Of a DNA stretch of 41,730 nt, positions 2,323 through 41,730 are shown in pieces (within the stretch, counting starts at the first letter, position 1; each line of letters starts with the position of its first letter). Source of the DNA: a virus; IMG/VR virus record IMGVR_UViG_3300011440_000035, positions 1 to 41,730 of that record. One strand, 5' to 3'. The position numbers and the translations under genes were made by a program. The notes below the pieces were generated by a model that saw nothing but the letters and a program-made list of their open reading frames with translations, ran no database searches and was not told the origin of the DNA.

Positions 2323-2576
2323 TGCCAACTCCACGAATTACGCCTGCGAAAGAGTTGGCAGAAAGTCTTTGGAAACAAAGAGACAGTCTGGGTTGGGACA
2401 AATACGATCCAGACTATGAATACTTTCTTGGCAATGCTATCCCCGAAGTGCGCAAGGAAATCCTTGCGTTGCTGGAGTGTGAGTGCGACCGGTGCGAAGT
2501 GGAGGACCATTGTTGTGAAAGCTGCACTGTGCGTAGAAAACTCATCGCGACCATTCGAGAGGCAAACGAGCCATGA
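2322..2576 (+). CDS. Cys-rich small protein, ITPAKEL family
   Basis: An 84-aa protein starting at ATG 2322 (TGATG overlap with paralogue A, AGGAAGGGG just upstream). A GTG three bases earlier is an alternative. The N-terminus has RITPAKEL; the C-terminus has EILALLECECDRC followed by HCCESC and a final IATIREANE. The gene at 39476-39871 shares ITPAKEL, IIALLEWEMKKC and LQTIRDAD, including 20 of 21 identical bases over ITPAKEL, so they are paralogues. Cysteine spacing suggests metal binding. It is wedged between two large paralogues and overlaps the next by ATGA. Confidence 0.7.
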   Translation: MPTPRITPAKELAESLWKQRDSLGWDKYDPDYEYFLGNAIPEVRKEILALLECECDRCEVEDHCCESCTVRRKLIATIREANEP

Positions 2577-3745
2577 ACTGGGCGCGGGATTCGTTGATAG
2601 GTGCGCCTTTCGGCGGTCAAGATCCCTTGATCATCTTGGGCGGCAACGGAATCATCGGAAATGCCATGATCGGGACATGGCGGCCCTTCGCGAACAATTC
2701 CCCATGGAACACTCTTATCCCAGCAAGTCCAGCAATTCACCAGCACTCCTCGCAGATCATCATCAAGTGCAACACCGTTGCCAACAAGATTCAATTCTCT
2801 CGCGACTACAACTTCCCACTATGGGTGGTCGATTCCAGGGACCTCTCTCCGCACCGTTTCGCCATCATCGACCCAAACCGCGGCGGAAACTTTTTCGACT
2901 TTTGGGATAACCCCGGGTTCCCGAACGGAGACGACAAGACAGACGTTCAGATCCCGATCTTGGAAGAGATGTGGGCAGAGCCCACAACCGATGGACACAT
3001 CATCATTCTCGACCGCGCTCCCCATCCGCCTGGCCTCGCCGATCCAAACGGCCCCCCCTTGGAGCTGTTTACCCTTATGGGCTATGAGATGTCGCGATAC
3101 TCCTGGCATACCCCAGATGTGTGGGCGACGACGTTCAATGTCTGGAACGTCACCTCAACCGGACCAGGCTATTCCGATCTGGTCGGGTTTCGGTGGGAGA
3201 ATCGAGGCGGTCGAGGATCCGGGTATCCCGCACTTGCTGGTATGCTTCGCCCGGAAGAAGTGGAAGAAGACAGCATCCGTCACGCCTTGGTGTTTACATT
3301 TGAAGGGGTGAAGGTCCACGCAACCGAGGAGGCCGTTTTCTACTGGCCGCCGGCTTGCCGATCGGATGACCCGACAGACAACCCAGCCGACGATGGAGAC
3401 GAATGGCCAGTCTACGGAATGCTATTCCAACTAGATCCCTCGAAGACAATCTCTGACTTGGACGGAGTTGTCAGCGGAACGCCAACATCCTCCACAATCA
3501 AGGTGTTCCGGTGCCTTCAAGAATACGGAATGTATTTCGGTGACTTCGGAGGCGGAGGAATCAAAATACAACGCCAGAGATTGCATCCATCGCTCGCCTC
3601 TGGCAGTGCCGCCGACAAGGCTCTATGGGAGGGCCGGTGTCCTGGAATGATTGACCAAATCGCACAGATCCCGACAACATGGTTTAGGGTGATCAACACG
3701 ACGGTTTCTCCGTGGAATGCTTTTCTTACCCTAAAATCCGATTGA
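2573..3745 (+). CDS. Paralogue B of unnamed DGHI/EYGM family
   Basis: A 390-aa protein starting at ATG 2573 (ATGA overlap). It repeats the landmark series of the 1384-2322 product: TWRPFANNSPWNT, PLWVVDS, EMWAEPTTDGHIIILD, YEMSRYSWHT, RGGRGSGYPALAG, MLRPEEVE, RHALVFTFEG, PPACRSD, PVYGMLFQL and EYGMYFGDFGGGG. It is longer through a Gly/Ile-rich N-terminal extension (residues ~8-32) and internal loops after residues ~90 and ~260. The two copies have diverged well beyond a recent duplication. Function unknown; two copies separated by one small gene suggest they work together, perhaps as a hetero-oligomer. Confidence 0.8.
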   Translation: MNWARDSLIGAPFGGQDPLIILGGNGIIGNAMIGTWRPFANNSPWNTLIPASPAIHQHSSQIIIKCNTVANKIQFSRDYNFPLWVVDSRDLSPHRFAIIDPNRGGNFFDFWDNPGFPNGDDKTDVQIPILEEMWAEPTTDGHIIILDRAPHPPGLADPNGPPLELFTLMGYEMSRYSWHTPDVWATTFNVWNVTSTGPGYSDLVGFRWENRGGRGSGYPALAGMLRPEEVEEDSIRHALVFTFEGVKVHATEEAVFYWPPACRSDDPTDNPADDGDEWPVYGMLFQLDPSKTISDLDGVVSGTPTSSTIKVFRCLQEYGMYFGDFGGGGIKIQRQRLHPSLASGSAADKALWEGRCPGMIDQIAQIPTTWFRVINTTVSPWNAFLTLKSD

Positions 3746-3757
3746 GAGGGAAGAGCC

Positions 3758-3931
3758 TTGACCGTTCTTCAATTCGCATGTGGAGTTTTCCTGGGAAAGC
3801 TGGCCCATGATGCCTGGAGCAATGACGCTTATGCGAAAATCCTGGTGGTGTTTGTGGTAGCCTTTGTCGTGGGTATGTTGCTCCAGTGGGTTGGCGTGCA
3901 CCTAAAGTGGGTGGAACGGCGGGTCTTGTGA
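3758..3931 (+). CDS. Small membrane protein, 57 aa (TTG start)
   Basis: A short ORF with TTG start at 3758, preceded by GAGAGGGAAGAG. The translation has one clear membrane helix (KILVVFVVAFVVGMLLQW, residues ~28-45) followed by a basic tail (HLKWVERR). It starts 12 bases after the previous stop and overlaps the next gene's GTG start, as expected for a coupled operon gene. No homologue recognised. Confidence 0.6.
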   Translation: MTVLQFACGVFLGKLAHDAWSNDAYAKILVVFVVAFVVGMLLQWVGVHLKWVERRVL

Positions 3932-4299
3932 TTCTTCCTCTTCTCATTGGGATGATGGTGTGGTCCTTTCCGCCCCCTCGTGCGGAGAATGCCGCCGTAA
4001 TATGGCTCGCCCTCGTGGAGAATCATTTTCCCTCACATCCGCTGGTACGCGACGAGCTCCGATCCTGGCACCGATCGAAGTTCCAATCACTCTACAGTGC
4101 TCCGCCTGCCACTGCCGATAGCATCACGGTGTACCTGTTCTCCGATCAGCCTGGAGCAGATGGCTGGATCGTCCAAGATTCTACGATGGTGCCGCGCTAT
4201 ATCATGTTGCAGAAGAATCAAGTTGAGTACGTGTTTCCCACATTCTGGCCCGACTCGTCGATCTCCAATATTCGATTCATCACAAGGAGGATACCGTGA
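3928..4299 (+). CDS. Exported/anchored hypothetical, 123 aa
   Basis: The start is taken as GTG 3928 (GTGA overlap with the preceding membrane-protein gene). This gives an N-terminal hydrophobic segment (ILPLLIGMMVW) resembling a signal peptide or anchor, followed by PPPRAENAA. The rest is soluble, with many aromatic and polar residues, and is unrecognised. A longer in-frame reading from 3886 is possible but lies over the previous gene. It is followed at once by the PEP-CTERM gene. Confidence 0.6.
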   Translation: MILPLLIGMMVWSFPPPRAENAAVIWLALVENHFPSHPLVRDELRSWHRSKFQSLYSAPPATADSITVYLFSDQPGADGWIVQDSTMVPRYIMLQKNQVEYVFPTFWPDSSISNIRFITRRIP

Positions 4300-4535
4300 G
4301 ACTCGCAGTGTTAATTGCCAGCGCCACGCTTTTCTTTTCGGCAGCTTTTGCTGAGGAGTTGGGTACGGCGTACATAAAAGACGTACAGGACGGCGACGCG
4401 CAGAAGAAACGTGGATTCGTTTCTACCGACGTGCGCCCGCCCGATAAAGTGACCGTTCCTGAGCCTGGAACAATCGCGCTGGTCACTCTTGGCCTTGCTG
4501 GATTGGCTGCCCACAAACGAAGGAGAAAGTCGTGA
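4296..4535 (+). CDS. Mini PEP-CTERM sorting-signal protein
   Basis: A 79-aa protein from GTG 4296 with a very strong site (AAGGAGG about 7 bases upstream). It has both export signals and little else: a Sec signal (residues 1-19, ending AAFA) and a C-terminal VPEPGT (54-59), hydrophobic helix (60-72) and basic end (HKRRRK). This is the tripartite PEP-CTERM signal recognised by exosortase in EPS-forming Gram-negative bacteria. The mature stretch between is only about 34 residues, acidic then basic. It overlaps the neighbours by 4 bases on each side. Finding this in a phage operon is unusual. Confidence 0.85.
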   Translation: MRLAVLIASATLFFSAAFAEELGTAYIKDVQDGDAQKKRGFVSTDVRPPDKVTVPEPGTIALVTLGLAGLAAHKRRRKS

Positions 4536-4621
4536 AGCTATACATGGGAATGATCGCGGTCCTCGGATATACAGCCGTGTTCCTTGGCACCTGGCTGGAC
4601 TTCTGGTGGTGGTTGCGATAG
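4532..4621 (+). CDS. Putative 29-aa membrane peptide
   Basis: GTG 4532 overlaps the PEP-CTERM stop (GTGA) and has AAGGAGAAAG upstream. The product is one hydrophobic helix ending in a cluster of tryptophans (DFWWWLR). It is the last gene of the rightward operon before the convergent leftward tail gene. Very short, so coding is inferred from the site, coupling and composition. Confidence 0.45.
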   Translation: MKLYMGMIAVLGYTAVFLGTWLDFWWWLR

Positions 4622-7548: not shown

Positions 7549-8052
7549 CTACTGCTCCGACGCGGGCAGCTCGTTTAAGCGAAGACCGAAGCGAAGGATA
7601 TTCGCGTCGTCTCCCAAGATCGCCGGATACCAAGCAACGAAAGGCATGACCTTTAGATCGAAGTCTTCGGAGAGAAGCTCGAGCGAAGCCTCCGGCCCAA
7701 TGAAAACGGAAGTCTCTTGCAAGCCGTCGAGCCCGCCACCGTTCAGATAGAACATCTGGGCACCCAGCCCGGGGTAAATGCCCTCGGCTGCCATCCAGAA
7801 ATGGCGCCCGCCGATACCAAGGAACCCGTCTCCCTCGTCGCCGAATCCACCAAGTCCCGACACCTCGAGCCAGCGAGAGGTCTCGCCGATCGGCAGTGCC
7901 CAGGATACTTCGGCGAATACGTCGCCGATCTTGTGAGATTCGTTGTGCTGATTCAAGAACACAACAGCTCCACCTCCAGCGATTTCCTGGGCTGCAACTG
8001 GCAGCGCCAAGAACGTAAGCAGCAATGCGCCAAGGAACATCTGCTTTTTCAT
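7549..8052 (-). CDS. Exported beta-rich protein, 167 aa
   Basis: It begins with a clear Sec signal (MKKQ, a Leu-rich core, LPVAA before Gln-Glu). AAAGGAG abuts the first ATG (8058), so the second ATG at 8052 has the better spacing and is preferred. The mature part alternates hydrophobic and polar residues, rich in Gly and aromatics (GGRHFWMAAEG, LRFGLRLNE at the end). It resembles a small outer-membrane beta-barrel or porin-like fold. It is adjacent to the lysis genes; a role in envelope disruption or virion release is inferred only. Confidence 0.65.
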   Translation of the reverse strand: MKKQMFLGALLLTFLALPVAAQEIAGGGAVVFLNQHNESHKIGDVFAEVSWALPIGETSRWLEVSGLGGFGDEGDGFLGIGGRHFWMAAEGIYPGLGAQMFYLNGGGLDGLQETSVFIGPEASLELLSEDFDLKVMPFVAWYPAILGDDANILRFGLRLNELPASEQ

Positions 8053-8070
8053 TTTCATCTCCTTTGGGTT

Positions 8071-8280: not shown

Positions 8281-8354
8281 GTCATATCCCCTTCGTCGTC
8301 AAGATCGTCATCATCATCTTCAGGATCGGGAATCGGCCGCGGATCACGTGTCAT
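8277..8354 (-). CDS. 25-aa acidic micro-gene in lysis cassette
   Basis: ATG 8354 overlaps the endolysin stop (ATGA) and has AAGGAGAAGG at ideal distance inside the endolysin 3' end. Its TGA overlaps the next ATG (ATGA). The peptide is very acidic, with a DDDDDLDDEGD stretch. Ribosome site and double coupling argue that it is translated, either for its own product or to couple endolysin and holin translation. Confidence 0.5.
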   Translation of the reverse strand: MTRDPRPIPDPEDDDDDLDDEGDMT

Positions 8355-8905
8355 GCTACCTTCTCCTTGAATTGAGAGATTGCGAGACTCGGCATGGATA
8401 GCGTCCCTTGTTTGTCCCACTGCACGTGGCACTTCTCCCCCTTCAGCTTCGTTCCGCCAATCCTCCACCTCCCGGACCAGGAGAGCCCTTCTTTTTCTGC
8501 GAGAGCACCCAGAAGCCCATAGAGCTGATCGTCTGCCCATTGCGGTTTCCCTCCGATCGTTGGAACGAAATCCACAGCAAGTCCACCCCGCCTGCCATCC
8601 ACTGCGAAGCCATGATGAAACGAGAACCCCGGCTTCGCATTGGTGAGTGCTGCCCTCTCCGGCTTTCCAGTTACCCGATGGAACGCCGCCGCGCACTCGA
8701 CCAATCCCGCATCCTTCAACCACACTCGCGCACCTTCCACTTCCGCTATGCTTCGCCCATGCGAGTAGAGCTCCGCTTGCTCTTCCAGATCGCGGTGCGT
8801 GCAGTAGATAAGAAACGGGATCCGCGCTTTTTTCGATGCGTCTACCCACTTCAAGACCAGCCCCTTCATGATCGGATGCAACTCGTCCAGCGAACGTGAG
8901 GCCAT
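8351..8905 (-). CDS. Endolysin, M15-type peptidase
   Basis: 184 aa from ATG 8905, the first Met that matches the family N-terminus (SRSLDELHP). Features of the VanY/L-Ala-D-Glu peptidase M15 fold: LIYCTHRDLEEQ (residues ~33-44), SFHH (95-98) leading through a small loop to GLAVDF (Asp112), and CHVQW (159-163) near the C-terminus. These provide the expected His/Asp/His zinc ligands. The motif GFAVD before GLAVD looks like a small insertion between the first His and the Asp. It would cleave peptidoglycan stem peptides at lysis. It has no signal peptide, so it needs a holin. Confidence 0.85.
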   Translation of the reverse strand: MASRSLDELHPIMKGLVLKWVDASKKARIPFLIYCTHRDLEEQAELYSHGRSIAEVEGARVWLKDAGLVECAAAFHRVTGKPERAALTNAKPGFSFHHGFAVDGRRGGLAVDFVPTIGGKPQWADDQLYGLLGALAEKEGLSWSGRWRIGGTKLKGEKCHVQWDKQGTLSMPSLAISQFKEKVA

Positions 8906-8910
8906 TCCCC

Positions 8911-9336
8911 CTACCCCCTTGTCAGTGCATAGGCCGCAATGAGCGCCCCCGCTACTGCAATAGCTCGTCCCCACCCGTCAATCATGCCCTTCGCCCTACC
9001 CTCTTCTCGACCTTGGCTATTCATCCGCCGGTTCTCGTCTTGGTCCTGCTTGTCCATGCGTTTGGTCATCGCCTCGAAGAGAACCTGTGCTTCAGATCTA
9101 GGCATGTACGTACGCTGGTGTTCATTGAGAGCATTCCTCCACTCGTTTGTTCCTTCCAATCTCTTCTCGATGGACAGTTCCGCTTTTGAATTGGCCACTT
9201 GAGCATTCGCGATAGCAATGGCAATGGCTTCTTTGTTCGCCTGGTGCCTCTGTTCGTATCTCTTGTCGTGGTCAGCAATTAACACGGTGAGATACTCCTT
9301 GAGAGTGTCTACAGTCCATTGCGAGCTCGAATCCAT
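8911..9336 (-). CDS. Coiled-coil protein with C-terminal TM anchor
   Basis: 141 aa. Residues ~10-105 are a charged helix typical of coiled coils (YEQRHQANKEAIA, KAELSIEKRLEG, NEHQRTYMPRSE). Residues ~120-138 form a membrane segment (IAVAGALIAAYAL). This layout recurs in lysis regions of many metagenomic siphoviruses just upstream of the endolysin, function unknown. Stop and endolysin start are 5 bases apart. It could be a holin/antiholin partner or a spanin-like factor. Confidence 0.6.
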   Translation of the reverse strand: MDSSSQWTVDTLKEYLTVLIADHDKRYEQRHQANKEAIAIAIANAQVANSKAELSIEKRLEGTNEWRNALNEHQRTYMPRSEAQVLFEAMTKRMDKQDQDENRRMNSQGREEGRAKGMIDGWGRAIAVAGALIAAYALTRG

Positions 9337-20999: not shown

Positions 21000-21145
21000 T
21001 CGGGGAGATCCACTGTAATGCTATGCGGGTACAACGACACGTCAACCGAGCGCAGCGGGATGTCCACCACAATCGTGCGTGGCTGCAAAGTCACATCATG
21101 CGCATGCACGTTTAGCTTCACAGCAATCTCCTCGCCCTCGCTCAT
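20996..21145 (-). CDS. Small hypothetical protein, 49 aa
   Basis: ATG 21145 overlaps the upstream stop (ATGA), and its own TGA overlaps the start of the next gene (ATGA). It fills exactly the space between two genes in a coupled operon. It is beta-rich and hydrophobic-alternating (VTLQPRTIVVDIPLRSVDVS). No homologue recognised. Confidence 0.6.
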   Translation of the reverse strand: MSEGEEIAVKLNVHAHDVTLQPRTIVVDIPLRSVDVSLYPHSITVDLPE

Positions 21146-21774
21146 GGGGTGACCACCTCACGCCAGTGCAAACGAACTACTGGTCTATTGGGAAGCAATC
21201 CTCCAGTAACAATGAACGCAGAAACGACTTGACCGGAATCAACCGTCACAGTGGAGTCGAACGACATAAATTTTTGCATCTGCTGTGCCACAATCGGCAA
21301 TTTCACGACAAGACTAGCGGGAGAGCCACCGTAGGTCTGCTTGTAGACATAGACCGAACAGGAAGAACTGGGCCTAGAATTCGAGTACTCCGCCGACACG
21401 AGATGATGCGTCGCAAAAAAGGCTATGCCATCCTCGGTGCTTTGGGTCGTGTCACTTTCAATGCTTCCTCCATATAGTAGAGCCCCAGCATGGGCCAAAG
21501 ATTGATGGCTAAACATGGTTTCCTGACTCGGACCAAGATACTTCCCCATCGATGGCGAATATATGAAATCCTCGTAATCCGTCGTCCTCGTGTACCCATC
21601 TATCTGCGTAGCCGGCTTAGTCGCGGTCTCTTCGAAGACGCGCCCTCCCCCTGTGCTCATGTGCTGGCCGGAAGCCGTAGCCGGTATGTGGAAGAAACAC
21701 ACCCAGCCCACAAATCCAAAGAAGATTGCGCAGATGATCGTCATTGCCAGCACGCGCTTGTGATCCTCAGTCAT
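21142..21774 (-). CDS. Membrane-anchored hypothetical, 210 aa
   Basis: The N-terminus has one hydrophobic helix (residues ~9-30, LAMTIICAIFFGFVGWVCFF), probably an anchor or uncleaved signal, and then a soluble, Ser/Thr/Tyr-rich beta domain resembling fibre or adhesion proteins. It lies between secreted paralogues and connectors, an unusual position for a membrane protein. No family recognised. Confidence 0.6.
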   Translation of the reverse strand: MTEDHKRVLAMTIICAIFFGFVGWVCFFHIPATASGQHMSTGGGRVFEETATKPATQIDGYTRTTDYEDFIYSPSMGKYLGPSQETMFSHQSLAHAGALLYGGSIESDTTQSTEDGIAFFATHHLVSAEYSNSRPSSSCSVYVYKQTYGGSPASLVVKLPIVAQQMQKFMSFDSTVTVDSGQVVSAFIVTGGLLPNRPVVRLHWREVVTP

Positions 21775-21784
21775 CCCTCTCTCC

Positions 21785-22219
21785 TCAATTAGTTGCCGGC
21801 GTGCCGTCAGTTACAAAAACCAACACCGTATCCGCACACGCGAGAATCTTGATTGAGTCAATCTTGCACCCACCGATGGTGACGCTGCGCACGTTGCCCG
21901 TAACTAGAAGCGTATCTACTCCCGATGGAAACTTGGGCGAGTAGATAATGGCGTTCAGATTTGCCGAGCCTTTCATATTGCGGATGTGCGCCCAGTACAC
22001 GGGGCGAATGAATCCCGGGAATCCAGCAGGCAGGCACGTGTTGTCCAGCATGGTCTTGGCGGGAAAGCGGAGCGTAGTATCAGCCGTCACGCCACCCGCC
22101 TGATTTCCCAGGGTAACACATAAACGATACTGCTCGCCCGTCATAACCTTGCTATTTGGAATCTGTCCCATGGTTGCTATAGATGCAAGTAGCACCGCCG
22201 CTGCAATTGCTTTCTTCAT
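21785..22219 (-). CDS. Exported paralogue 2 of capsid-adjacent pair
   Basis: 144 aa with a Sec signal (MKKA, hydrophobic core, MGQIP). The mature part shares ADTTLRFP, YWAHI, YSPKFPSGVDT and GGCKIDSIKI with the gene immediately upstream (22219-22635), in the same order: a tandem pair. Its start overlaps the stop of that gene by one base. Function unknown; it is probably a small beta-sandwich in the periplasm or on the outer surface. Confidence 0.7.
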   Translation of the reverse strand: MKKAIAAAVLLASIATMGQIPNSKVMTGEQYRLCVTLGNQAGGVTADTTLRFPAKTMLDNTCLPAGFPGFIRPVYWAHIRNMKGSANLNAIIYSPKFPSGVDTLLVTGNVRSVTIGGCKIDSIKILACADTVLVFVTDGTPATN

Positions 22220-22635
22220 CAGTCCGTCGCCAGGATTGCAATCGTATTCGTGCCGCCGATCTTCACGCGAAGCGAATCAACCTTGCACCCGCCAAAAGAG
22301 AACGCCCGAGCTAGGGAAGTGAGCCTTACCGTATCCGCACCGGCTGGAAACGTAGGCGACCAGATGATGATATCCTGGTCAGTCGCGCCGAGCAGCATGG
22401 TGAGATGAACCCAATTCACCGACCTACGTAGACCCTGATTGGCGGCCTGCTGATCGATGAGGTTGTTCGAGAGCGATTGGCGAGTAGGAAAGCGTACAGT
22501 TGTATCCGCCGCCAGCGTGCCGAACTGAATGGACAGACGGTAGAAGTCACCCGTCTCCACCTTCGATGATGGCACCTGAGCCTGAGCGGCGCTCGCAACG
22601 AACACGAGCGCCAGCCCAAGTAGTACGCCTTTCAC
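22219..22635 (-). CDS. Exported paralogue 1 of capsid-adjacent pair
   Basis: 138 aa. The start is GTG 22635 (GTGA overlap with the preceding gene), which gives the Sec signal KGVLLGLALVFVASAAQA before Gln-Val-Pro. The longer ORF upstream lies over the neighbour. Shared motifs with the gene downstream: ADTTVRFP, NWVHL, WSPTFPAGADT and GGCKVDSLRV. Function unknown. Confidence 0.7.
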   Translation of the reverse strand: MKGVLLGLALVFVASAAQAQVPSSKVETGDFYRLSIQFGTLAADTTVRFPTRQSLSNNLIDQQAANQGLRRSVNWVHLTMLLGATDQDIIIWSPTFPAGADTVRLTSLARAFSFGGCKVDSLRVKIGGTNTIAILATD

Positions 22636-22892
22636 TTGATCACTCGGTAGGCAGTATCCGGGAGCGTCGCCTTGAGCGCAGCCCACTCATCCGGCGACAA
22701 GTGCAAAGTCCGAAACGGACCCGTCCACTTGTACATGGGCGCTCCGGCAAGTCCCATCGCACGAGTGTTGAGCCTCGCATTCGTGGCAACTCGCACAATA
22801 ACCTTCTTCTCATTCTTGGCCGGCGTGGTCGCCTTGGGGATGGCCTTGTCCACCTTAGGCGGAACCTTCGGTGCCTCTGGTTTTTTCTCCAT
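22632..22892 (-). CDS. Lys/Pro-rich small protein, 86 aa
   Basis: The start is ATG 22892, two bases after the upstream stop and near GGGCGAG. The longer ORF to 23150 overlies the neighbour. The N-terminal third is Lys/Pro/Ala-rich and disordered (EKKPEAPKVPPKVDK). The rest has YKWTGPFRTLHLSPDEWAAL, a compact domain common in small phage head proteins whose function is not known. It lies within the capsid cluster. Confidence 0.6.
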   Translation of the reverse strand: MEKKPEAPKVPPKVDKAIPKATTPAKNEKKVIVRVATNARLNTRAMGLAGAPMYKWTGPFRTLHLSPDEWAALKATLPDTAYRVIK

Positions 22893-22893
22893 G

Positions 22894-23322
22894 TTACTCG
22901 CCCTTGTTCCAGAAGATGTAGGCTCGACCAAAAGGGGCACCTGCCGCCGTGAGGTTGTCCATAATGATTCGGATTTGCCATCCTGCATAAGTCCCAACTC
23001 CTCCACCAAAGTTTGCTGTGGCTTCAGCAGCACCGGAAGCGGTGGTGTCAATGTCAATGGCGAACCATCTCGTTCCACCGTCTGGCGACACGATAACCTT
23101 GATGCTCGCAAGCGAATCAACAGCCGAGGCCACGTACCAGTTGATAGCATCTTTGGGAATGTTTTCTATCGCAGACGTATCGGCCGCAACGATCATCGAG
23201 TCCCCAGTGGAACCACCGGAAGCCTTAGAAACCGAAGAGCTTACCGTCTTTGCACCAGTTGACACCAAAAACAGTGCCAGAAGTACCGTGGCGCTGGCCG
23301 TCGCCCTGACAATCTTGTTCAT
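22894..23322 (-). CDS. Exported hypothetical, 142 aa
   Basis: It begins with a Sec-type N-terminus (MNKIVRATASATVLLALFLV) and then a Ser/Gly/Ala-rich soluble domain (NWYVASAVDSLASIKVIV, RWFAIDIDTT). AAAGGGAG precedes ATG 23322. It is the first gene after the major capsid gene, where decoration genes usually are. With a signal peptide it is more likely exported than a virion decoration protein, but this is not certain. Confidence 0.65.
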   Translation of the reverse strand: MNKIVRATASATVLLALFLVSTGAKTVSSSVSKASGGSTGDSMIVAADTSAIENIPKDAINWYVASAVDSLASIKVIVSPDGGTRWFAIDIDTTASGAAEATANFGGGVGTYAGWQIRIIMDNLTAAGAPFGRAYIFWNKGE

Positions 23323-30351: not shown

Positions 30352-30546
30352 CTAGTTCACACTCGGCCCACATTGTGGGCGTATAATCATTTCCATGAAC
30401 ATCTCATACCGATGCTTCTCGAGTACACTGATCATCTTCGCCATGTTCTGAAAGCGCGTGATCTCGTACCAGATGAAGTAGTACACCGGATCAACCGGAT
30501 CAACGTAGATGTCAGCTGTTGACATTGGCTCGCTCCATTCGTTCAT
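30352..30546 (-). CDS. Small hypothetical protein, 64 aa
   Basis: It begins at ATG 30546 in a TGATG overlap with the giant gene stop. Acidic N-terminus, an aromatic centre (DPVYYFIWYEIT) and a Met-rich helix (NMAKMISVLEKHRYEMFMEM). No family recognised. The coupling makes translation likely. Confidence 0.55.
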   Translation of the reverse strand: MNEWSEPMSTADIYVDPVDPVYYFIWYEITRFQNMAKMISVLEKHRYEMFMEMIIRPQCGPSVN

Positions 30547-33500
30547 CAGTACCCCCGAGCCTTGGCCCATTCATGATACCAGTGTCCCATAATGCCTTGC
30601 TTTTGGAAGTAATTGTTTCCGTAATTCACGAAGGGGCAGTCATATCCACCGTCCCCAAAATGTACCGGCCCTCGGATCAAGTCGTTGGCGAATGGTAGGC
30701 TAACTCTGCTGATCATACTCGAGGAGAGTACGTTCCAGAAGTAGACGCAGGTCAGACCGTCACCGATTCCCGAAGGCGCTTGGCAGAGGCAGGTACAAGG
30801 GTTTTGGTGCGAGTCCTCACCCCACTGATAGAACATTCCCATAAACGTCACCGTCGTTGGATTCTGGCAGTTAACGTCTCGGATAGTCCTAGACCGCGGC
30901 CCTGCCGCGTATGTCATCCCATGCGTGGAGTAGTTATTCGCCAGGGTTAGCGTTACGTTCGCGTCGGTAAACCGATTCCACCGAGTTTGGATGCGGTTCG
31001 TCTGATACAGCCCGTTGGCAAGAAACGCGAGCATCCAAGGCTTCTGCTGCCACCAGTCGGTATCGCACCCCAACGCCTCGGGATCCTCATTCCAGTGGCC
31101 GGACCAACGCGCAGCGTTCACGTCCACGCATCTCTTCAGGTCCGTCCAGCGCGTAGTGGTCGGCTCAAAGTCGCAGATCATCGCCGCCCAGTTGATGAGA
31201 TTGGCGACCGCGCGGCCTTCTCCATCTGAGAATTCGTCCGCGCCCACCCCGTTCACGAAAGTTACACGGTCGTGGATCATGGTCTTTTTACGGTTCCAAT
31301 CCTCTTGCAGGAATGGGCTGCCCGTAATCATCGCCACCGGCAAGAGAGCCAATCCGTGGCAGTACCCACCCACCGGCTTTTGATTTGATCGCCCTATGTT
31401 GCCAAGACCACTCGATCCATGTGTCGTATGCGGGAAAATAATCCCGTTCTTTCGAGCCTCGAAATCATAATCCACGTTGTAACTGGCCTGCTGGTCCATG
31501 TGTACCTGCTGCTCGATCGACTTCCACGCCGAGTCAGCGTACGCGTATCCGTTGAGCGAATCGCTTGCCACGCCAGCGATGGACCAGAGGAACCAGAGAT
31601 GCGCCAACTCGGTCTCGTATTGCTGTCCACCTCGGCAAGCGTCGATGGTCGGGCCAGCGGAGCCATCAAACTGTCGGTAGCAGTTCCCGAACATGAGAGG
31701 TGACTTCCACCACGAAGCGGGTGGGTTCTCAGTTTGGACGCGCCGCGACCACTCGCGCGCGTGATGCTCAATCACCGACAAAAGCGAGTCCGGGGAATTC
31801 CAGGCCGCCCCTCGATGCTTGACAAGTACATCCGTCCATGGCCACGCCTTGGTCGAGATGTATTCGTCGGCCGGCTGGAGCACCATCGGAGGTTCCATCC
31901 CCTGGCCTTCTCCGAGCTCGAAGCGGAGGCTCTCGCCAGCGCGCCACCGCCCACCATAGTCGTACTGCTCGCCAGACGGATGGTCGTAACTTCCCGGGTG
32001 CCAGACCGAAACGATCGAGGTGTCCGCACCCGATCCCAAGCCCATGTCTGCAGCCCAGCGAATGCGCATGGTGTCACCCGTCTCGCGAATGAAGCGCACC
32101 GATGCGGTCGTTTCAGCCGCAACGTCGCCCCCCCAGTTGCCAGCGTTTAGTTGCCAGTTAGTGGCCCGCTTCTGATTGCGGATCGACACCCAAGACCTGA
32201 TCGTCCCGTCTGCCCAGTAGTCGTGATAAACGCGAATCTCCATTGCGCCAGGCGATCCTAGGTATGTACCCCATCCGTTCGTGGTGTCGTGGAACGCTCG
32301 GCGAAGGATTCGGCCCGTAACTGGCTGTGGTGTGTTCTCGACTTGAGCGCGGGTGAGATCGAATAGCGCCGAGTCGGCCCCCTGATACTTAAAGCGGACA
32401 TTGAAGTTGGGCGGTTCCGAAGTAGTCACCGAATCCGCCGTCTGCGCTGCTGCCGGGATATGTACCTGCCACGTTCCAGAGTGCGTCCACTTCGTTGCCA
32501 TCTGACAGGTGCGCAAGGACCCATCCGGCCAGCACCAGAAGCGCAACGGCTCCTTGGGGTCGATGGTCGAGCTCGTGGCGAACTGCGTGTTGATCACTTC
32601 GCCCGCGGTATCGCGCAACGCCAAGCCGTTGCCCGATGCACAAACCGAGGAATCAATGGATCCTTGAGGAAAGCCCACGCAGAAGATCGAATTGCCCGTT
32701 CCTTTGACGACAATGGTCGCCTTGGTCGCCGGAGTGCCCGTCGGAATCTGCCACGAGCACGGCAAGTTATCCACCGCCTCGTTCGGCTCCCCGTCAGGAT
32801 CATTCTCGAAGATGTTGCAGTTGGTGGTATCGACGAGCCCGCTTCCGCCAGTGGTCGTCCCGAGCACGCGCCCCTTGTTCGACCATGATGTTTTGTCCCC
32901 CTCATGGAACCAGGCAACGAAGGCGACCGTATCCGATGCGCCGGCGGCCAGGGTTTCAGCAGCGACAGAGCGCAGCAACGAGTCATGCGCGGTGGTGCCG
33001 TCGAATGCTGAATTCACCGTGAATAAACGCGAGGTCACGTTGCGCACCGAGTCGAGCCCCGAGGTCGCGGGGAAGCTGGACCCGATTGGGTTGCGCACGT
33101 TCGGTCGAATGAGCGGCGCTGTCCCCATGTTCTTGACAATCGTGGTGCAGGGGACGGAGCGCCGCGTAGCGACTCCACCCACCGGACCCACGATCTGAGC
33201 GCCGGCAATGATTGGGGTAGAGAGTAAAGGCGCGGCGCAGAATTGATTGCTCGGTGTGCCCTGGAGAAAGTGCGAAGCCGACACCGGAAGGTTTCCGAAC
33301 CCGCCCGAAGTCGCATTTGCCCACACCCGATTGGAGAAGCACTCATTGGCCCCATGGGTGACGCGAATCTTGTATTGCAAGATTGTGTACTGAGCCGGGA
33401 ATGATCCTGGGAATTGCGGGCTGTCTACCGAGCCCTCCGGCGCCATAGAAATAATCGTTCCCAGTGATGCGTTGGTATCTTCCCCCGTCCATCCTGGATT

Positions 33501-34286
33501 GGCAATAACCGACGCCGTTCCGCCAAAAACGAAGGGGGGAACCAGCACGGTGTAGTTTCCACCAGTGATGTAATTGGCAAGCGTGTCAGGAATGGAACTC
33601 GGCTGGATCAGTACCATGGGATGCTCCCCACCGGGTGGGGTAACATTCCATATCACTATCTGCATAATTAAGTCGCTGTGAGTCGCATCCACGTAGGTAC
33701 GCTCCGCCACAACTTGGCTTATCGCCATCATCCCGAGCGGAGTCTCAACCGGGAGCTTCATCGGTGGAGGAGTTGAGGTTTCATCAACGCCACCCGATCC
33801 CGTAACCCGCGCAGAGAAGGTGAATTCCTCGAGCGAGTCGGAGGATACCTCCACTACGTAGCGAAGCACCGCAATCTGTCCGGGGAGTAGCGAGTTGGAT
33901 CCGTGTACCAAATTCGAGCTATCCGCGGCACCCGTCCACGTCGTGTCTGCGTGAATATCAGCAGACTTCCCACCTTCGAGCCGTGGCTTGGAAATGATCG
34001 AGTAGGTGGCTGGATCCGCGATGTGGTTAACCAGCGTGTCCAAAACGGCAATCGTCGAGCACACCACCGCCGACTTGTTGACGAGCAAGTGCGAGACGAT
34101 CAGTTGGAAATGACGCTCGCCAGCGAAACTTGCTTGGTACGATGTGTGCACCGAGAGACGGGAATCGGAAATTGGGTGCGACGAACCGGACGTGATATTC
34201 GCCGCATCAACACTCACAAAACAAAAGGCGAGACAGACCGCAAGAGCAATCCATCTCGCCAGATTCTTTGCCACCACCACCCCCAC
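30546..34286 (-). CDS. Giant exported protein, ~1246 aa
   Basis: The frame starts at a GTG (34286), with several further GTGs directly after, so the exact start is uncertain. An N-terminal Sec signal (ARWIALAVCLAFCFVSVDA) is clear. The first ~560 residues are several Ig/beta-sandwich-like domains with cysteine pairs. The rest is Trp/Tyr/His-rich, with DYWADGTIRSWVSIRN, HLWFLWSIAGVASDS, FPHTTHGSSGLG and HGLALLPVAMITGSP. This resembles an alpha/alpha-toroid polysaccharide lyase or similar carbohydrate enzyme, but I cannot identify a catalytic triad. Placed upstream of terminase, an odd location. Predicted to act in the host envelope or outside. Confidence 0.7.
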   Translation of the reverse strand: MGVVVAKNLARWIALAVCLAFCFVSVDAANITSGSSHPISDSRLSVHTSYQASFAGERHFQLIVSHLLVNKSAVVCSTIAVLDTLVNHIADPATYSIISKPRLEGGKSADIHADTTWTGAADSSNLVHGSNSLLPGQIAVLRYVVEVSSDSLEEFTFSARVTGSGGVDETSTPPPMKLPVETPLGMMAISQVVAERTYVDATHSDLIMQIVIWNVTPPGGEHPMVLIQPSSIPDTLANYITGGNYTVLVPPFVFGGTASVIANPGWTGEDTNASLGTIISMAPEGSVDSPQFPGSFPAQYTILQYKIRVTHGANECFSNRVWANATSGGFGNLPVSASHFLQGTPSNQFCAAPLLSTPIIAGAQIVGPVGGVATRRSVPCTTIVKNMGTAPLIRPNVRNPIGSSFPATSGLDSVRNVTSRLFTVNSAFDGTTAHDSLLRSVAAETLAAGASDTVAFVAWFHEGDKTSWSNKGRVLGTTTGGSGLVDTTNCNIFENDPDGEPNEAVDNLPCSWQIPTGTPATKATIVVKGTGNSIFCVGFPQGSIDSSVCASGNGLALRDTAGEVINTQFATSSTIDPKEPLRFWCWPDGSLRTCQMATKWTHSGTWQVHIPAAAQTADSVTTSEPPNFNVRFKYQGADSALFDLTRAQVENTPQPVTGRILRRAFHDTTNGWGTYLGSPGAMEIRVYHDYWADGTIRSWVSIRNQKRATNWQLNAGNWGGDVAAETTASVRFIRETGDTMRIRWAADMGLGSGADTSIVSVWHPGSYDHPSGEQYDYGGRWRAGESLRFELGEGQGMEPPMVLQPADEYISTKAWPWTDVLVKHRGAAWNSPDSLLSVIEHHAREWSRRVQTENPPASWWKSPLMFGNCYRQFDGSAGPTIDACRGGQQYETELAHLWFLWSIAGVASDSLNGYAYADSAWKSIEQQVHMDQQASYNVDYDFEARKNGIIFPHTTHGSSGLGNIGRSNQKPVGGYCHGLALLPVAMITGSPFLQEDWNRKKTMIHDRVTFVNGVGADEFSDGEGRAVANLINWAAMICDFEPTTTRWTDLKRCVDVNAARWSGHWNEDPEALGCDTDWWQQKPWMLAFLANGLYQTNRIQTRWNRFTDANVTLTLANNYSTHGMTYAAGPRSRTIRDVNCQNPTTVTFMGMFYQWGEDSHQNPCTCLCQAPSGIGDGLTCVYFWNVLSSSMISRVSLPFANDLIRGPVHFGDGGYDCPFVNYGNNYFQKQGIMGHWYHEWAKARGY

Positions 34287-41341: not shown

Positions 41342-41730
41342 GTGAAAATCACAGTTCCGTATCTGCGTAGTGGTGTCGGAGCAACCCCAGCCGATGGTGG
41401 ATGTGTGCTCCAGATTGTGGGCTGGATCAAAACTGGGGGGTGGACCGATTCGCCAGAATGTGTGCATCCGGTGTTCCAGAAACTTGCCATCACAGCCAAC
41501 GACTCACTCGACAATGCACAGCGACAGGAATTGATTGACCTGATTCCGCAACTCATGGACACCGCGACAGACGACAAGAAGGTCTCGGTGAAGCTGGCGA
41601 TCTTCTGCGCCAAGCGCGTACTTCCGCTCTTCGAGAAACACTCCCCGCACGATGCGCGACCACGCCAAGCGATCGAAGCGGCGGAGCGGTGGTGTGACGG
41701 ACGCACCACCGCCAACGCCGCCTACGCCGC
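41342..41730 (+). CDS. Ala-rich protein, N-terminal fragment
   Basis: The start is GTG 41342 with AAGGAG ~8 bases upstream; an earlier GTG at 41312 overlaps the previous stop and is also possible. Conserved-type N-terminal domain: GGCVLQIVGWIKTGGW, DSPECVHP, VSVKLAIFCAKRVLPLFE and ARPRQAIEAAERW, then Ala/Asn/Tyr repeats at the edge. The family (Imm-5-like in some annotations) occurs in phages and actinobacteria. The C-terminal part is at the left edge of this window. Function unknown. Confidence 0.75.
   Translation, partial: MKITVPYLRSGVGATPADGGCVLQIVGWIKTGGWTDSPECVHPVFQKLAITANDSLDNAQRQELIDLIPQLMDTATDDKKVSVKLAIFCAKRVLPLFEKHSPHDARPRQAIEAAERWCDGRTTANAAYA

Follow-up and report, generated by a model that had tools for sequence, protein, structure and literature searches.

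Many bacteria use the PEP-CTERM tag to route proteins to their outer surface, and this locus raises the question of what such a tag is doing on a 79-amino-acid (aa) protein encoded by a phage. The window analysed here is a whole IMG/VR virus record of 41,730 bases. The first-pass annotation had placed in it a 79-aa ORF with a Sec signal and a mature part of about 34 residues ahead of a PEP-CTERM tail. We favour, at slightly better than even confidence, a reading in which this protein is a phage-encoded substrate of the host exosortase, delivered by an envelope-modifying cassette. The features concerned are collected in Table 1.

The ORF was recovered exactly at the annotated coordinates, on the plus strand and with a GTG start. 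Signal-peptide calls throughout this work come from a home-made heuristic combined with hydropathy; by these, the N-terminus is Sec-like, cleavage is predicted between MRLAVLIASATLFFSAAFA and EE, and 35 residues separate the predicted cleavage site from the PEP motif, in good agreement with the annotation. No other hydrophobic segment was detected by the same means between the predicted signal and the tail, and the layout reads MRLAVLIASATLFFSAAFA, then EELGTAYIKDVQDGDAQKKRGFVSTDVRPPDKVT-VPEPGTIALVTLGLAGLAAHKRRRKS. The tail consists of the PEP motif, a hydrophobic stretch of about 14 residues and a basic end (VPEPGT-IALVTLGLAGLAA-HKRRRKS), and runs up to the stop codon. The HMM search that had been proposed gave 31.2 bits with PF07589 (curated cut-off 20.7) and 28.1 bits with TIGR02595 (cut-off 16), and in a six-frame search of the whole record the tail was the sole PF07589 match over the curated cut-off (E 4.2e-9). 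Because both scores exceed their cut-offs, chance is not a serious option for the tail. The protein is below the NCBIfam whole-protein cut-offs for the named PEP-CTERM subfamilies (EDSAP-1, THxN, PepA, XDP1 and others), which match it in the tail region only, at about 15–31 bits against cut-offs of 50–125 bits. It thus resembles the substrates of the PEP-CTERM/exosortase (EpsH/Xrt) system (PF07589/TIGR02595; Haft et al. 2006, PMC1569441) in its Sec-like signal, its PEP motif and hydrophobic stretch, the basic end at the extreme C-terminus and a middle part that belongs to no recognisable family; it differs from them in being phage-borne, in its length of 79 aa, in its charged middle and in the lack of an exosortase in the record. 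A chance ORF, or a stretch of bacterial DNA joined during assembly, might likewise be short and have a middle part without homologue, but this explanation is highly improbable given the E value, the strong Shine-Dalgarno sequence, the GTGA overlaps described below, the phage genes on both sides and a G+C content around the gene similar to that of the rest of the record.

Table 1. Coordinates of the features discussed (positions in the window, except where a locus is named).
Feature	Position	Strand	Remarks
57-aa ORF	3758..3931	+	one strong transmembrane helix; TTG start; heads the cluster
123-aa ORF	3928..4299	+	N-terminal signal-like segment; no Cys; GTG start
Shine-Dalgarno AAGGAGG	4284..4290	+	5 nt upstream of the GTG of the 79-aa ORF; read from sequence
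79-aa PEP-CTERM protein	4296..4535	+	GTG start; PF07589 and TIGR02595 matches
Sec-type signal peptide MRLAVLIASATLFFSAAFA (predicted)	4296..4352	+	hydropathy and AxA heuristic
Charged middle part EELGTAYIKDVQDGDAQKKRGFVSTDVRPPDKVTV	4353..4457	+	35 residues
PEP-CTERM tail	4452..4523	+	PEP motif, hydrophobic stretch, basic end; PF07589 match
AAGGAG	4520..4525	+	within basic-tail codons; likely Shine-Dalgarno for the 29-aa ORF
29-aa ORF MKLYMGMIAVLGYTAVFLGTWLDFWWWLR	4532..4621	+	one hydrophobic helix; start inside GTGA overlap
Endolysin	8351..8974	-	away from the PEP-CTERM cluster
56-aa Acidobacteriaceae PEP-CTERM protein	L145:5554-5724	-	conserved between genomes
56-aa Acidobacteriaceae PEP-CTERM protein	L146:3861-4031	+	conserved between genomes

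The gene is the third of four small ORFs, all encoding exported or membrane proteins, that are linked by three GTGA overlaps. For the 123-aa ORF, the GTG at 3928, which overlaps the preceding stop codon, is a better start than the listed one at 3886; this ORF has no NCBIfam family match and the 57-aa ORF no confident family match. A succession of three GTGA junctions suggests that translation of these ORFs is coupled, which we take as an argument that the PEP-CTERM gene functions as part of the phage. Structural and lysis genes are on the minus strand, and the cluster closes a plus-strand block; a promoter and terminator scan around it gave nothing useful. The description of the region as an operon of exported genes stands for the immediate cluster; it does not extend to the two paralogues upstream (1384-2322 and 2573-3745), which have no clear signal peptide. 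A cluster of this kind could also be a lysis cassette, in which the 79-aa product would be a holin or spanin-like membrane protein whose tail merely resembles PEP-CTERM: the protein is hydrophobic at both ends and clusters with two single-helix mini-proteins. This is quite improbable, since the tail matches at 31 bits and has an exact VPEPGT motif, a middle part of 35 residues is too short to cross the periplasm, and the endolysin is encoded elsewhere, on the opposite strand. A unimolecular spanin, with a lipobox Cys and a C-terminal helix, was considered and rejected, as the 79 residues contain no Cys and hence no lipobox.

By its gene content the record is a tailed-phage genome. It encodes a portal with a C-terminal head-morphogenesis part, a head maturation protease, a major head protein, a tape measure protein, a VanY-type endolysin, a VRR-NUC-like nuclease and a Mu Gam-like protein, and its terminase large subunit was recognised via tblastn to annotated phage terminases. 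Only two distant loci in IMG/VR carry terminase relatives, and all portal relatives among deposited phages are under 60% identity, so that the phage is, by these comparisons, isolated in sequence space. The tandem paralogues (plus strand, 41% identical) show a weak likeness to the minor tail protein phrog_17388. It had been suggested to survey viral databases for PEP-CTERM ORFs beside paralogues of this pair, but neither singly nor as an alignment did the pair find relatives in IMG/VR. No exosortase (PF09721) is encoded in the 41,730 bases, and any sorting of the 79-aa protein must therefore rely on that of the host. The HMM matches, the phage genes and the missing PF09721 together bear out the view that a PEP-CTERM protein is present here in a phage that has no exosortase of its own.

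The gene might alternatively have come from a host and persist as neutral cargo or for surface conversion, without serving the phage in any special way. Its tail closely resembles bacterial tails, for example VPEPGTIALMVTGL in Acidobacteriaceae, and its middle part has no relative among the phage PEP-CTERM proteins listed. A chromosomal source of that middle part was nevertheless not found: a search of 84,980 genomes with the 79-aa protein gave 21 matches, mainly to the tail, and the 35 residues had no relative in these genomes, in phages or in IMG/VR. The first-pass annotation had held that its proposal would fall if the region occurred in bacterial chromosomes and not in phages; essentially only tail relatives were found there. 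In addition, the overlaps embed the gene tightly among phage-specific ORFs and, unlike a loose moron, it has no promoter or terminator of its own that we could find. We thus regard descent from the host without a phage function as unlikely.

The same annotation did not count PEP-CTERM among the standard phage modules. To hold that phages lack it would be too strong, as such proteins recur in many unrelated IMG/VR records, several of them with clear head or packaging genes. A tail-motif scan of IMG/VR gave at least 119 stretches, and two further complete scans gave 12 and 23. PF07589 was over its cut-off in 48 of 49 records picked by tail shape among the matches listed, a proportion that verifies the tails but says nothing about frequency, since the records were chosen for them. 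None of the 48 PEP-CTERM-bearing virus records had an exosortase match; because the enzyme is absent from these as well as from the window, dependence on the host appears to be the common pattern. By PHROG matches, L098, L101 and L079 lie in records with a terminase, portal or major head protein, L014 in one with a terminase and L119 in one with tail proteins, so that PEP-CTERM proteins belong to phages in no fewer than four unrelated contexts; some of the remaining records may be host flanks. A simple rule yielded at least 80 PEP-CTERM-like ORFs in at least 72 loci, with a median length of 235 aa among the matches listed, and the parts ahead of the tail fell into 38 groups among those matches, the window protein being alone in its own. 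The full-size proteins (L098/L101/L057/L117; L079; L119), of about 170–350 aa and with large secreted domains, share with the window protein a tailed-phage gene order and the lack of an exosortase in the record, but it belongs to none of their groups. Two other short complete proteins among the matches listed, L100 (105 aa) and L014 (138 aa), resemble it in their small size, short linker and a tail over the TIGR02595 cut-off; they differ in their N-terminal helix, which has the look of an anchor that is not cleaved, and their sequences are unrelated to it. L189 (101 aa) does not begin with a signal-like segment. Judged by sequence, the 79-aa protein is the shortest complete one with a cleavable-looking signal among the phage-borne matches listed. 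The recurrence of virus-borne tagged proteins suggests that some phages borrow the surface-sorting machine of their host.

Full-size phage PEP-CTERM queries gave no credible tblastn match in isolated phages, and queries of this type found none in plasmids, which are known to carry such genes (for example in Desulfovibrio vulgaris, PMC1569441); this kind of search is thus insensitive to the tails, and finding nothing in isolated phages is not evidence. In the literature, 13 TIGR03118 proteins with a putative exosortase interaction domain are listed among cell-derived genes of hot-spring viruses (PMC11003980). Such passing mentions were all that the papers searched contained on viral PEP-CTERM or exosortase proteins, and no dedicated study of phage-borne PEP-CTERM was found in the full texts of open-licence papers, which is weak evidence of novelty; the locus points to an unstudied phage–host interface. 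A separate case is L181 (618-2147, minus strand), where a 509-aa ORF combines a tape-measure N-terminal part (TIGR02675 34.8 bits, cut-off 21.35) with a PEP-CTERM end (TIGR02595 21.4 bits, cut-off 16) and adjoins an exported PEP-CTERM-like ORF of 201 aa; either a genuine fusion or a join made during assembly would account for it.

Small PEP-CTERM proteins also exist on bacterial chromosomes. In 12 bacterial genomes, 140 of 146 PF07589 matches were in open frames of more than 102 aa, the length of the frame in the window, and six in frames of at most 102 aa, of which one is located at the edge of a contig. Among Acidobacteriaceae, genomes G059 and G054 encode a 56-aa protein composed of a signal, about ten residues and a PEP-CTERM tail, with relatives in G089 and G075 (in the latter by similarity); the gene lies near pdxT in G059 and G089, and each of the four genomes has a PF09721 exosortase at more than 240 bits. 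Minimal PEP-CTERM proteins are thus, as far as sequence conservation can tell, real and conserved in exosortase-bearing bacteria, and shortness is by itself no reason to regard the phage protein as unusual. The plan of signal, short linker and tail is common to both; the 56-aa family differs in being chromosomal, in its shorter linker and in the exosortase encoded in its genomes, and no similarity to the window protein was found outside the tail.

The most interesting alternative is that the phage protein acts as a decoy, an abundant short substrate that would occupy the host exosortase and thin out the host's PEP-CTERM proteins or bound polysaccharide. A cargo of only 35 residues behind a canonical VPEPGT tail would suit this role, and short phage proteins of similar plan occur independently (L100, L014), but with an apparently uncleaved helix at the N-terminus. 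However, the tail carries no inhibitor-like change and resembles that of an ordinary substrate, phage PEP-CTERM proteins are mostly full-size, and the chromosomal 56-aa family indicates that smallness need not mean inhibition. We therefore consider a decoy unlikely, about as much so as neutral cargo from the host.

Under the favoured reading of the 79-aa protein as an ordinary exosortase substrate, the steps would follow the published model, in which exosortase processing comes after Sec export, with the tail as membrane anchor, and the processed protein is delivered to the surface or to polysaccharide (PMC1569441, PMC12188702). Sec would export the protein, the tail would keep it in the inner membrane, the host exosortase would cut it at the PEP region, and a charged peptide of about 35 residues might reach the outer surface or the exopolysaccharide. 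The PEP-CTERM protein PepA offers a precedent for effects on polysaccharide, which it moved from the soluble to the cell-bound form (PMC9850573). The 38 unrelated groups of middle parts listed fit a tag that serves as a sorting label on diverse cargo, and further window proteins with signal-like N-termini are in keeping with an export-linked reading. Presumed co-translation with three small membrane or exported proteins makes an envelope-modifying cassette, rather than a virion component, most likely; it may alter the envelope, for example as a surface change during infection or against superinfection. The first-pass annotation had offered a block on sorting, a mark on the infected cell surface or a hindrance to superinfection as candidate roles. 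This role, read from gene company only, is the least certain step of the mechanism. Should the host exosortase process the protein, a very small substrate would be available as a handy probe of a sorting system in which the last step, anchoring, is not yet clear. A broader proposal is that exploitation of the host exosortase is general among tailed phages, whose tagged proteins, ranging from full-size secreted domains to a 79-aa minimum, would alter or jam the display of surface proteins and polysaccharide on infected cells, the four-gene GTGA-coupled cassette being a new anti-envelope or superinfection-exclusion module that works via PEP-CTERM sorting; we advance it only tentatively and hold it to be rather doubtful.

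Clues to the host are few. In searches of three phyla, the best portal matches were in Planctomycetota (144 bits), ahead of Pseudomonadota (71) and Acidobacteriota (44), but the planctomycete matches are only 27–32% identical and not decisive. Of the six planctomycete genomes that matched the portal best, one has a clear exosortase; no exosortase match was found in the genome whose portal match is longest. Resemblance of the tail, in the search of 84,980 genomes, favours no single phylum.

Some further features of the record may be mentioned. A 169-aa protein without family match (7549-8058, minus strand), beside the lysis genes, has a clear signal-like N-terminus and is possibly a small outer-membrane barrel; its AlphaFold model (mean pLDDT 36) and those of the tandem paralogues (mean pLDDT 30) were set aside. 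More signal-like N-termini occur among the structural genes (21142-23322 and 30546-34286, minus strand), which seems many for a phage. There is no exact terminal repeat in the record. Two ORFs at opposite contig ends (2319-2576 and 39434-39871, plus strand) are similar when compared by eye (ITPAKEL..., C-x2-C), and the same CCGCCAACGCCGCC-type repeat is present at both ends (90-190 and 41700-41730), which would fit a break of a circular or permuted genome within a low-complexity stretch.
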